Assembly: GCA_001799715.1 (NCBI GenBank)
Contig: MGTZ01000060.1
Coordinates: forward strand, 30,120 to 94,119
Reading direction: 5' to 3'
Length of the DNA stretch: 64,000 nucleotides
Origin: Elusimicrobia bacterium GWB2_63_16
Lineage (GTDB): Bacteria > Elusimicrobiota > Elusimicrobia > Elusimicrobiales > UBA9959
The translations under genes were made by a program, and so were the position numbers. Positions 8,612 to 12,677 of this stretch are shown here, piece after piece; position 1 is the first letter of the stretch; each line of letters begins with the position of its first letter. The notes beneath the pieces are model-generated. The model was not told where the DNA came from. It ran no database searches and was given only the letters and a program-made list of their open reading frames with translations.

Positions 8612-10060
8612 ATGAAAAGCAAGAACCTCTTAACTTTCGCGCTGCTGGCCGCGGCCCTTCTGGCCCCGGCGGCGGCGCAAGCCCAGTCGCTGGAAGCGCT
8701 GCGCAGCAAGACGGCCCTGGAGGCGCAGATAGAAGAGCGCCTCCGGTCCATGATCTCTTCCTACCTCAACACCAAGGAAGTCGCCGTGGCCGCCAAGGTC
8801 AACGTGCTGGTCAGCCGCAAGAACGACGATCCCAAGAGCGGCGTGCGCAAGTGGGACGACAAGGACGAACTGATCCTGCCCGGCGTGCCCGCGGCTACCT
8901 CGATGACCAAGGATTCCGGCGCGGCCAAGGCCGCCGAGGCCGCCAAGCGGCAGGTGCGCCTGGGAGTGGACAGCGTGAACATCTGGATCATCGTGGGCAA
9001 GCCGGTGGCCAAGGACCAGGAGACCAAGATCAAGAAGCTGGTCGGCGACGCGCTGGGCCTGGACACCGCCGTTGGCGACACCATTTCCGTGGAGAGCACG
9101 CTGCCGGAGAAGCCTTCGCGCGCGCTGGATATCGGCGCCATCGTGGCCCTGGTCTGCCTGGCCGTGCTGGCCGCCTTCCTGTACGGCCCTTTCCGCGGCT
9201 TCCTGGCCCGCCTCAACGAGAACCTGGCCGCCCTGGCGGCGGCGAAGAAAGGCCCGGCCGAGCACAAGTCCGGCGGCGGCGGGGACATCACCCTGGCCGG
9301 GGGGGACGACATGCCCGCCGAGACCACGATGTCGGGCGCGCTGGCCATAGCCGGCGGCGGCGGCGGGGCGTCGGTGCTCTCTTTCGATTCCGGCGACAAC
9401 ATCCCGCTGGAAAAGTACGTCACCAAGGACAACGTGGACGACCTGATGCTCATCCTGCACGACGAGCCCGCCGAAGTGATAGCCAAGGTGGTGCAGCGCA
9501 TCCCGCAGAAGCTGGCCTTCACGGCCATCCCCAAATACAAGATGAAGGAAGTGCTCGAGCAGTTCCTCAAGCGCGAGTTCGACGAGCCGGAGAAGATCAA
9601 GACGCTGCTGGACCGCATCAAGGACAAGATGGCCGGCAGCTTCGGCGGCGAGCAGCGCCTGGGCAACCTGATGCAGATCATGGACAAGAAATCCCAGGAG
9701 CGCACGCTGGCCTTCCTGCGCGAGAAGGACGCGGCCTTCGCCGCGGCCGTGGAGACCCGCTACTTCAAGTTCGAGGACCTGATGCGCTACGACGAGATGG
9801 CGCTGCGCAGGATCTTCCGCAAGGCCGGCGCCGAGCCTTTCGCCCGCTGCCTGAAGAACTGCGACGCCCCCACGCTGGAGGCCTTCCACGAGATGCTGGG
9901 CCCCGCCATCAGGGACCTCGTGAACGCGCGCATGCAGAACATGCTGCTGACCGGCGACACCAACGATTCGGAGCTGACCATCCTGGCCGCCGTGCAGGCG
10001 CTGGCCGCCAAGGGGCTGATCCTGCCGCTGGCCGACGTCAAGCAGGCCGGCAAGGTCTGA
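8612..10060 (+). CDS. Chimeric flagellar-type rotor protein: FliF RBM3-like domain, membrane helix, FliG M/C domains
   Basis: The start has a good ribosome site (AGAAGGAGCAGGTAAAAATG). The 482-residue chain has a signal peptide or N-terminal helix (1-25). A periplasmic section (about 26-165) resembles the C-terminal ring-building region of FliF: 'IEERLRSMISSYL', then 'VNIWIIVGKPV', 'KKLVGDALGLD' and 'GDTISVESTLPEKP'. A membrane helix follows (about 172-194), then a Gly-rich cytoplasmic linker, a FliG-middle-like segment (about 268-340) and a FliG C-terminal-like domain (about 345-475) with the family's 'FKFEDLMRYDEMALRRIF'. The two upstream ring domains, the first periplasmic part of FliF and the FliF-binding FliG N-domain are missing, as expected if the two proteins were joined. 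The torque helix (about 426-445) reads 'AIRDLVNARM' and lacks the adjacent acidic pair of E. coli FliG. In family terms this is a rotor that couples to MotA; a filament-less use is inference. Confidence 0.8.
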   Translation: MKSKNLLTFALLAAALLAPAAAQAQSLEALRSKTALEAQIEERLRSMISSYLNTKEVAVAAKVNVLVSRKNDDPKSGVRKWDDKDELILPGVPAATSMTKDSGAAKAAEAAKRQVRLGVDSVNIWIIVGKPVAKDQETKIKKLVGDALGLDTAVGDTISVESTLPEKPSRALDIGAIVALVCLAVLAAFLYGPFRGFLARLNENLAALAAAKKGPAEHKSGGGGDITLAGGDDMPAETTMSGALAIAGGGGGASVLSFDSGDNIPLEKYVTKDNVDDLMLILHDEPAEVIAKVVQRIPQKLAFTAIPKYKMKEVLEQFLKREFDEPEKIKTLLDRIKDKMAGSFGGEQRLGNLMQIMDKKSQERTLAFLREKDAAFAAAVETRYFKFEDLMRYDEMALRRIFRKAGAEPFARCLKNCDAPTLEAFHEMLGPAIRDLVNARMQNMLLTGDTNDSELTILAAVQALAAKGLILPLADVKQAGKV

Positions 10061-10085
10061 GCCGCTATTTTAAGGAGGAGTTAAC

Positions 10086-10847
10086 GTGGACTTTTCAACC
10101 GTTATAGGATTGGCCCTGGGCGTGGGCTGCGTTTATTACGCCATGGCGGCCGGCGACATCATGGGCCTGCTGTGGGACCTGCCTTCCTTCATCCTGGTGG
10201 TCGGCGGCACCATAGCCTCCACCATGATGACCTTCCCGATGGAAGTCATAAAACACGTGCCGCGCTCGCTGCTGCTGACCTTCTTCCCGCAGAAGGTAGG
10301 CAAGCCGCAGGTTATCATCAACCGGCTCTGCGCGCTGGCCGACGTGGTCAAGGAGAAGGGCGTGGACTCGCTCGCCGAACACACCGTCAAGGACGACAAG
10401 TTCCTGAAGTCCGGGGTAAAAATGATACTCAGCGAATGGGACGAGGACGCCATCAAGGAAAGTCTCGAGAAGGACATGGAATTCACGCTGGAGCGACACC
10501 AGCAGGTGCAGAAGGCCTTCGCGGCGGCCGGCGGCTACGGACCGGTGTTCGGCCTGCTCGGTACGCTCATCGGCATCCTGGGCGTGCTGCGCTACCTCGA
10601 CAGCCCCAAGGCCATGGGCGCCGCCATGACGGTGGCCATCGTTACCACTTTCTACGGCATCTTCATGGCCAATTTCATAGCGCTGCCCACCGCCGGCAAG
10701 CTGGAGAACTACAGCAACAAGGAACTCCTGGCCAAGCAGCTGATGCTGATGGGCGTGCTCTCCTTCAAGAAAGAGGAGTCTTCCCTGAACCTGCGCCGCA
10801 AGCTGGAGAAGCACCTGGGCGCGCAGCACCGCAAAGAGGAAAAATAG
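10086..10847 (+). CDS. motA: MotA-family stator protein
   Basis: The GTG start follows a strong ribosome site (AAGGAGGAGTTAACGTG). The 253-residue product has four predicted membrane helices in MotA order: two near the N-terminus (about 3-22 and 30-50), a long cytoplasmic loop, then two more (about 150-205). The MotA signature is intact: 'YGPVFGLLGTLIGILGVL' with the conserved Pro, then 'AMTVAIVTTFYGIFMAN' and 'ALPTAGKLE' with the second conserved Pro. MotA forms the pentamer that surrounds a MotB dimer and pushes on FliG as ions flow. The FliG-like protein sits immediately upstream and two MotB-like genes immediately downstream, so stator and rotor are encoded together. The family assignment is firm; what the motor drives is unknown. 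Confidence 0.92.
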   Translation: MDFSTVIGLALGVGCVYYAMAAGDIMGLLWDLPSFILVVGGTIASTMMTFPMEVIKHVPRSLLLTFFPQKVGKPQVIINRLCALADVVKEKGVDSLAEHTVKDDKFLKSGVKMILSEWDEDAIKESLEKDMEFTLERHQQVQKAFAAAGGYGPVFGLLGTLIGILGVLRYLDSPKAMGAAMTVAIVTTFYGIFMANFIALPTAGKLENYSNKELLAKQLMLMGVLSFKKEESSLNLRRKLEKHLGAQHRKEEK

Positions 10848-10862
10848 CCGTACCCCGAACCG

Positions 10863-11627: not shown

Positions 11628-12265
11628 AGAAGAAGAAACTGGACTTCTCCGAGGCGATGAACGCCTACCTGATGCCCTACATCGGCGTCATGACCATCTT
11701 GTGCATCTTCTTCCTGATCCAGTACGCCGACTACTCGGAGCGCCTGAAGAAAAAGAACGCCGAGCGCACCGAGATCCTGGCACAGGAGGTCAAAGAGGAC
11801 CTCAAGGACCTGCAGGACGCCAAGGTGGAGACGGTGGAGGACGGGATCAAGGTAACGCTGCCCTCTTCCGTGGTTTTCGACCTGAGCATAGCCAGACTCA
11901 AGGACGCGGCCCTGCCCACCCTGGGCAACCTGGCCGCGAGCATCAAGAACCTCGACGAGCGCTACGTGGTGGTGGTGGACGGTCACACGGACGACGAGCC
12001 GGTCTTCTACGGCGGCGACTTCTCGTCCAACTGGGAACTTTCGCTCTACCGGGCCATCAGCGTGATAGATTTCCTCGTGAAAGAGGGGAACAACCCGGAA
12101 CTTTTCGCGGCCGCGGGGCACGGGCAGTACAGCCCGCTGTACCCCAACGATACGCCGGAGCACAAGGCGGCCAACCGCAGGGTGGAGATACTGATACGCA
12201 GGAGGACCGCCCCGTCGGCGCCTCTGGCGGAAGTGGTGAGCGCGGAGCGGCAAACCGCAAATTAA
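11624..12265 (+). CDS. Second MotB-like protein with OmpA domain, lacking the ion-binding Asp
   Basis: This 213-residue protein repeats the MotB layout: a basic N-terminus, one membrane helix (about 14-36) and an OmpA domain with 'VVVVDGHTDDEPVF' and 'NRRVEILIRRR'. The helix reads 'AYLMPYIGVMTILCIFFL' and contains no Asp, so the position used by MotB to bind the ion is not acidic. The nearest acid is Glu10, before the helix. It is translationally coupled to the first motB by ATGA. One MotA with two MotB-like partners recalls AglR with AglQ and AglS of Myxococcus gliding, although those lack the OmpA domain. A heterodimeric stator or a wall anchor without ion flow are both possible. Confidence 0.85.
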   Translation: MKKKKLDFSEAMNAYLMPYIGVMTILCIFFLIQYADYSERLKKKNAERTEILAQEVKEDLKDLQDAKVETVEDGIKVTLPSSVVFDLSIARLKDAALPTLGNLAASIKNLDERYVVVVDGHTDDEPVFYGGDFSSNWELSLYRAISVIDFLVKEGNNPELFAAAGHGQYSPLYPNDTPEHKAANRRVEILIRRRTAPSAPLAEVVSAERQTAN

Positions 12266-12296
12266 GGCAACAGGTAAGGCAGGCTAAGGAGAATCA

Positions 12297-12677
12297 ATGA
12301 GAATAATTATCGCTGACGACGACGACGACGTGAGGGACCTGGTGGAAATGGTGCTCAGCTCGGCCGGCTACGACGTCTCGCCCCATCCCAACGGCAAAAA
12401 AGCCTGGGAGGCCCTGCAGAAGAACGGCGCCGACATGGCCGTGCTCGACATCAACATGCCGGAGATGGACGGCCTGGAGCTGCTGGACCTGATACGCGGC
12501 GACGACCGCTACAAGGAGATGCCTGTGATGCTGCTGACCGCGCGCAAGGGCATGGACGAGAAGGCCAAGGGGATAGAGCGCGGCGCCGACGATTACCTGA
12601 CCAAGCCCTTCGAGAACGACGAGCTGATCAAGCGCGTGCGCCTGCTGGAGCAGGCCTACCCGGCCAACGGGGGCTGA
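12297..12677 (+). CDS. CheY-like single-domain response regulator
   Basis: The 126-residue product is a complete receiver domain and nothing else. Its acidic cluster is 'IIADDDDDV', Asp51 in 'AVLDINMPEMDG' is the expected phospho-acceptor, Thr81 is in 'MLLTARK' and Lys103 is in 'DDYLTKPF'. It has a clear ribosome site (AAGGAGAATCAATG) 32 bases after the second motB gene and so is likely the last motor gene of the operon. By analogy with CheY it could bind the rotor or stator to control direction or engagement. FliM, the usual CheY target, is not encoded here, so its partner is unknown. No cognate kinase is adjacent; the kinase at 48068 has its own NarL-type partner. Confidence 0.88.
   Translation: MRIIIADDDDDVRDLVEMVLSSAGYDVSPHPNGKKAWEALQKNGADMAVLDINMPEMDGLELLDLIRGDDRYKEMPVMLLTARKGMDEKAKGIERGADDYLTKPFENDELIKRVRLLEQAYPANGG

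Follow-up and report, generated by a model that had tools for sequence, protein, structure and literature searches.

The core of the bacterial flagellar motor comprises the FliF MS-ring, FliG and the stator MotAB/PomAB. Fusions of full-length FliF and FliG have been engineered in Vibrio and Salmonella and reportedly assemble rings (PMC11481574, PMC6079021). The type 9 secretion and gliding machine of Bacteroidota (GldLM, GldKN, SprA, PorV, SprF, SprB) uses GldLM, which resembles MotAB but is not homologous to it (PMC13104615). The gliding motor AglRQS of Myxococcus, also non-flagellar, combines a MotA-like protein with two different MotB-like proteins. Here we analysed a 64-kb stretch of DNA (the window) from Elusimicrobia bacterium GWB2_63_16, the draft genome of an elusimicrobiote (2.87 Mb, 62 contigs, 91% complete). 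It contains an operon for a putative FliF-FliG chimera (in the following the rotor), MotA, two MotB proteins (MotB1 and MotB2) and a CheY-like receiver. Coordinates of the motor operon are given in window numbering (Table 1).

With the flagellar motor core this locus shares the RBM3 domain, the membrane helix, the M and C domains of FliG, a MotA of the flagellar type, a MotB with membrane Asp and OmpA-type domain, and the CheY-like receiver. As in the engineered proteins FliF and FliG form a single chain. The constructs are laboratory fusions of the complete proteins, whereas here a shortened fusion occurs naturally and shows conservation across the phylum. An SprA-like translocon, PorV-family barrels, C-terminal sorting domains, a CheY-like regulator and a surface protein of about 6,000 amino acids encoded beside an outer-membrane barrel are common to the Bacteroidota machine, but the motor itself consists of FliF-FliG and MotAB. 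AglRQS has the same set of one MotA-like and two unlike MotB-like proteins; the descriptions consulted mention no FliF-FliG rotor for it. The system is not the Bacteroidota gliding motor as described, since its motor is a different one, though it shares parts with both the flagellum and the gliding machine.

Results

Predicted domain structure of the rotor

Comparison of the rotor with Pfam yielded FliG_C (3.9e-10, above cut-off) and YscJ_FliF_C (1e-3, 20 bits, under the cut-off of 23.8). A family profile derived from an alignment of 28 members (A1) was searched against the PDB sequences and matched FliG structures with 2.2e-61 (profile positions 260-474) and FliF structures with 9e-8 (positions 36-164) and 2e-6. 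The AlphaFold2 model of the rotor reached a mean pLDDT of 70, with values mostly between 80 and 92 in the FliG part. It consists of a periplasmic helix-strand-strand-helix-strand unit and a membrane helix, followed by a FliG part made of helices only. A Foldseek search with this model returned FliG on top (4.9e-8) and the RBM3/collar of FliF next (4e-4 to 8e-4), all with a probability of 1.0. Chance similarity to FliG is ruled out by the profile match and the Foldseek result. Judged from profiles and predicted fold, the rotor is a real FliF-FliG chimera. The preliminary description of the window, made from the sequence alone, had claimed such a chimera, and the profile searches against FliF and FliG, both of which matched, as well as the fold prediction agree with it.

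In contrast to the flagellar motor, FliF and FliG are joined here in one natural chain without RBM1, RBM2 and the FliG N domain. The rotor has about 150 periplasmic residues, and neither RBM1 nor RBM2 was found by the Pfam scan, in which the FliF N-terminal family remained unmatched. No FliG N domain was found when the profile was compared with PDB sequences, the FliG match beginning at the M domain. Furthermore, the FliM-binding motif EHPQ is degenerate in the rotor alignment. Apparent barrel-rotor gene fusions of 966 amino acids in loci L079 and L080 turned out to be artefacts of open reading frame start extension.

Search for flagellar genes and phylogeny of the FliG module

Each search for flagellar genes was validated on four control flagellates, which matched every time. 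In the source genome, at its 91% completeness, neither FlhA (PF00771) nor FliM/FliN (PF01052) nor flagellin (PF00669) was found. Among 150 genomes of the phylum FlhA was detected in a single one and in none of the 47 rotor-bearing genomes; it was also not found in rotor-bearing genomes that are up to 100% complete (G111, G087, G115). The lone FlhA-bearing genome (G032) possesses canonical flagellar genes (G032:C2) with separate fliF and fliG and lacks a chimeric rotor. Differing from the flagellar motor also in this respect, the machine is not a flagellum: no type III export gate, no FliM/FliN of a C-ring and no filament gene came up in these searches. The lack of a flagellar gene set, noted initially for the 64 kb only, thus extends to the whole draft genome for the three families, and no full flagellum encoded elsewhere was encountered.

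For phylogenetic analysis the FliG modules of 65 rotors and of 12 flagellar FliGs, including that of the elusimicrobial flagellate, were placed in an unrooted tree. Rotors and flagellar FliGs lie on two sides of one branch (support 99/99), i.e. the rotors form a group separate from the flagellar motor. An ordinary flagellar paralogue is ruled out by this tree and by the missing FlhA, FliM/FliN and flagellin. The rotor paralogues of the source genome are placed in different old clades. Being unrooted, the tree leaves the order of origin of rotor and flagellum undirected.

Gene order and stator proteins

The genes for rotor, MotA, MotB1, MotB2 and receiver all lie in this order on the + strand, separated by 25, 15, -4 and 31 bases, and a Pfam scan of the genes after the rotor identified MotA_ExbB, OmpA (twice) and Response_reg. 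The unbroken operon reported in the preliminary description was recovered with all its parts. Two corrections have to be made: it is one of five rotor operons in the genome, and MotB2 is devoid of the ion-binding aspartate.

Compared with the PDB, the MotA profile matched exclusively flagellar MotA/PomA (2e-76), and MotB1 and MotB2 both fall within the MotB/PomB profile. The two pore prolines of MotA are conserved in the alignment across operons. At the position of PomA R88 nearly all operon MotAs have K or R, while the position of PomA E96 is mostly lost. On the rotor side R281 of FliG is lost and D289 is mostly replaced by Glu. From these alignments most operons appear to have kept one of the two known charge pairs (PomA R88/FliG D289) and to have lost both partners of the other one (PomA E96/FliG R281).

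The occurrence of two unlike MotBs is a further difference from the flagellar motor. All 19 single MotBs and 30 of 31 first MotBs carry the membrane Asp; in the operon of the sole exception the second MotB carries it. Among second MotBs this site is occupied by D (17), N (8), G (3), A (1) or S (1), with one sequence unaligned. Every operon scored consequently encodes at least one B subunit with Asp. Because four different residues replace it, the alignment indicates that the Asp of the second MotB was lost repeatedly across lineages.

Ratios of nonsynonymous to synonymous substitutions (dN/dS, NG86 method) were determined for the window operon against genome G111. Values of about 0.21 (rotor), 0.15 (MotA), 0.17 (MotB1), 0.14 (MotB2) and 0.11 (receiver) were obtained. 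All five genes are under purifying selection, and MotB2 is constrained despite its missing Asp.

Distribution and operon types

The rotor profile matches 153 of 341 Elusimicrobiota genomes and 69 of 100 genera; G032 is among the 153 only by its canonical FliG. To judge from these sequence matches, a motor core without a flagellum is carried by most free-living lineages of the phylum, often in multiple copies. Outside the phylum a contig scan with short patterns matched Elusimicrobia only, the full rotor profile having been run within Elusimicrobiota, and plasmid records contained FliG halves only and no chimera. The source genome has five rotors and six MotA/ExbB genes, five of which adjoin rotors. 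To judge from these five rotors with five neighbouring MotAs, rotor and stator are inherited together.

Diagrams of 67 rotor loci revealed at least five operon types (A-E). Type A, to which the window belongs, has the order giant protein, sorting-domain protein, PorV-TPR, rotor, MotA, MotB1, MotB2, receiver, SBBP protein and PorV. In type B, the genes after PorV-TPR encode a rotor that itself carries a TPR tail, then a large soluble protein, FlbD (2e-26), MotA and MotB. Type C comprises a signal-peptide protein with a barrel-like C-terminus, rotor, MotA, two MotBs and a TPR protein. PorV, a histidine kinase and the rotor constitute type D, with MotAB and receivers on the opposite strand, and type E, which lacks MotAB, consists of PorV, rotor and two large soluble proteins.

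Several loci showed additional features. In type D loci L031:14284-16404, L036 and L108 a receiver-bearing protein of about 706 amino acids is encoded between MotAB and the rotor, which resembles a dedicated signalling input to the motor. Type E loci (L042, L088, L089, L091, L094, L096, L098, L099) encode barrel, rotor and soluble coiled-coil/TPR proteins of 800-1,600 amino acids with no adjoining MotAB. A 74-amino-acid FlbD gene (PF06289) precedes MotA-MotB in type B loci, including L032, L073 and L075. FlbD before MotA-MotB is an order of genes present in flagellar operons, and it hints at descent from such an operon. In L043:11416-15150 (G135, gut order f2) the rotor reading frame runs into the SBBP gene, and MotA, MotB1, MotB2 and receiver are gone; the locus resembles what a deletion would leave behind in a reduced lineage.

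Surface proteins and type 9 secretion components

PorV-type barrels and giant proteins with a C-terminal sorting domain belong to the operon, which again distinguishes it from the flagellar motor. Table 1 gives an overview of the features of the locus.

Table 1 Features of the motor locus and its neighbourhood (window numbering)
Feature	Position	Strand	Basis and remarks
C-terminal part of a 6,022-amino-acid surface protein; candidate cargo or adhesin	13..6489	+	Signal peptide, Ig-like repeats, C-terminal type 9 sorting domain
116-amino-acid protein with signal peptide and type 9 sorting domain	6509..6859	+	TIGR04183, 27.7 bits (cut-off 23)
PorV-like outer-membrane beta-barrel with C-terminal TPR domain (PorV-TPR)	6856..8541	+	PorV_fam 2.5e-9, AlphaFold2 model, PDB match
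Rotor, FliF(RBM3)-membrane helix-FliG(M+C) chimera, 482 amino acids	8612..10060	+	Profiles, predicted fold
Rotor, RBM3-like periplasmic ring-building domain (residues 36-164)	8717..9103	+	Profile, model, Foldseek
Rotor, membrane helix (about residues 174-191)	9131..9184	+	Helix in model, hydropathy
Rotor, M and C domains of FliG (about residues 275-474); FliG N domain missing	9434..10033	+	Profile, model, Foldseek
MotA of the flagellar (PomA-like) type with both pore prolines	10086..10847	+	Profiles, alignment
MotB1, membrane Asp D20 (YSDLITN), OmpA-type peptidoglycan-binding domain	10863..11627	+	Profiles, alignment
MotB2, OmpA-type domain, Gly G21 (YIGVMT) in place of the membrane Asp	11624..12265	+	Profiles, alignment
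CheY-like stand-alone receiver domain	12297..12677	+	Response_reg 9.6e-31
Beta-propeller-repeat (SBBP) surface protein, sorting-type C-terminus	12684..14810	+	Pfam scan
Second PorV-family barrel	14817..15983	+	PorV_fam 7.7e-47, 160 bits (NCBIfam cut-off 90)
TPR-LysM protein, signal peptide present; its place downstream is conserved in close relatives	15967..16578	+	Pfam scan, locus comparison

The AlphaFold2 model of PorV-TPR (pLDDT 79) shows a 14-stranded barrel and TPR helices; of all PDB entries, PorV of the type 9 translocon matched it best (6h3i_F, 2.1e-9). The protein has no cysteine outside the signal peptide; therefore the SprF-GldK disulfide link of the Bacteroidota machine cannot apply. 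The gene for the giant surface protein is whole on the contig (C60:18540-36608); the window contains its last third, and its start lies beyond the window. Fourteen Big_3_5 stretches are found in the C-terminal part. In G111 and G037 the same operon is preceded by genes for orthologues of 6,821 and 5,966 amino acids, respectively. The sorting domain of the 116-amino-acid protein closely resembles that of the giant protein when the C-termini are compared.

Of 306 non-motor genes located up to 4 kb from a rotor, 45 encode PorV-like proteins, compared with 13 of 318 at greater distance. An SprA-like translocon was detected by a phylum profile in 297 of 341 genomes (copy of the source genome: G000:C8:4671-10001). 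With TIGR04189 the SprA-like proteins of the phylum gave 4.8e-40 and 1.2e-47, under the 200-bit equivalog cut-off. Pfam SprA_N had no match in the source genome and proved too insensitive, as the phylum profile later found the SprA-like gene. The association with PorV-like barrels and sorting domains, as suggested at the outset, is real according to the near and far counts and the presence of this translocon.

Several papers call the type 9 system confined to Bacteroidota; the SprA-like translocon is nevertheless present in the Elusimicrobiota genomes counted above. The SprA/Sov-like gene stands in a conserved LptFG-SprA-ComF setting (L131; L063, L064, L066-L069). Elsewhere in the window (22185-28991) a large surface-type protein of 1,921 amino acids is followed by a PorV-like barrel (27954-28991) with no motor alongside.

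Discussion

The motor core is well supported, and we consider it very likely that rotor and stator form a working pair. The rotor would build a ring in the inner membrane by its FliF-type RBM3 domain and, with the same chain, a FliG-type torque ring in the cytoplasm. MotA, MotB1 and MotB2 would constitute a peptidoglycan-anchored stator turning this ring by ion flow, with the Asp of MotB1 as putative ion site and MotB2 probably as structural partner in a B1-B2 heterodimer. In the Myxococcus motor AglQ and AglS both keep the Asp, and the authors call it unknown whether the two heterodimerise (PMC9389320). Regulation of the motor is probably the task of the CheY-like receiver, no FliM or FliN having been found. 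A precedent for CheY-like control of a type 9 motor is PorX, which binds the motor protein GldL through its CheY-like domain (PMC10951265). Outside, the rotor may act on the PorV-like barrel via the periplasmic TPR tail of the latter, and the giant type-9-sorted surface protein may be moved or turned as a gliding adhesin would be. In Bacteroidota the outer-membrane protein SprF anchors or carries the gliding adhesin SprB and binds the moving track (PMC12635249). Our confidence declines from ring assembly over the MotA-MotB drive, the B1-B2 heterodimer and the control by the receiver to the work on barrel and giant protein, and motility as the output is what we infer. Taken together, the reading we regard as probable, with some reserve, is a rotary motor without filament by which surface proteins are driven in a gliding-like manner.

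Some observations speak against this reading. In the window's own clade the acidic residues D288/D289 of FliG are lost (A and R), so that its rotor-stator contact must differ. Some operons with rotor and barrel have no neighbouring MotAB. PorV-like genes are common in the phylum and their clustering may partly reflect this general abundance; the neighbourhood argument is therefore only suggestive. Gut lineages keep SprA without a rotor, and thus SprA itself can do without the motor. In addition, no gene was recognised that could serve as shaft or rod from the ring to the outer membrane, the rod and hook families not having been searched genome-wide.

Alternatively, the motor could power export, i.e. 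energise a type-9-like secretion of the surface proteins of its operon via SprA in place of GldLM. The sorting-domain proteins and PorV shuttles in the operons and the wide distribution of the SprA-like translocon fit this idea, and in Bacteroidota a single motor serves both secretion and gliding (PMC8986121, PMC13104615). Nevertheless we regard it as rather unlikely: the gut order f2 and f10 retain SprA but have no rotor, and up to five different rotor operons accompany a single SprA gene, which suggests substrate-specific machines. Moreover, the search for GldM (TIGR03517) matched none of 150 genomes and no control genome either, so a normal type 9 motor may coexist.

The operon might also encode a device that turns no load, such as a load sensor, a signalling scaffold or a Tol-Pal-like brace of the envelope. 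Receivers, accompanied by histidine kinases in some operons, would suit a sensor, and OmpA domains of MotB bind peptidoglycan in known systems. A brace, however, needs neither the torque-specific FliG C domain nor the cytoplasmic domain of a flagellar-type MotA, both of which are kept, and the MotB Asp is always retained in at least one B subunit; we judge such a device improbable. Remnants have been named as one source of half motors (PMC12199754), and the presence of core parts only as well as the FlbD gene in one operon type would be in line with a functionless remnant of a lost flagellum. Given the purifying selection, several ancient paralogous operons per genome and the occurrence in 69 of 100 genera with conserved new partners, this explanation is hardly credible.

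Searches of open papers for FliG/FliF/MotA, gliding and type 9 secretion in Elusimicrobia and for non-flagellar FliG yielded no description of the arrangement, with preprints and most subscription papers beyond reach. A review on gliding from 2026 mentions neither FliG nor FliF (PMC13104615). Within this literature the earlier remark that the arrangement is undescribed holds. The torque parts are homologous to those of the flagellar motor; if it drives surface proteins as proposed, the machine would deserve a class of its own. We tentatively suggest, as a possibility that may well fail, a separate class of surface motors in which a FliF-FliG ring is turned by MotA with an unequal MotB1-MotB2 pair, a single Asp per stator being sufficient, and drives giant type-9-sorted adhesins.

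The observation holds and is bigger than first noted. It suggests an undescribed rotary machine that probably moves proteins on the cell surface, and it provides a conserved, multi-copy candidate with named partners. The repeated loss of one MotB Asp makes two questions on 5:2 motors testable, namely if unlike B chains are possible and if a single ion site suffices (PMC9389320). One Asp per stator, if true, predicts steps of 72 degrees instead of 36 degrees. If our reading is right, gliding or surface transport would be built on a flagellar rotor in these bacteria, and half a flagellar motor would work as a machine, of which each cell would hold several specialised copies in parallel.

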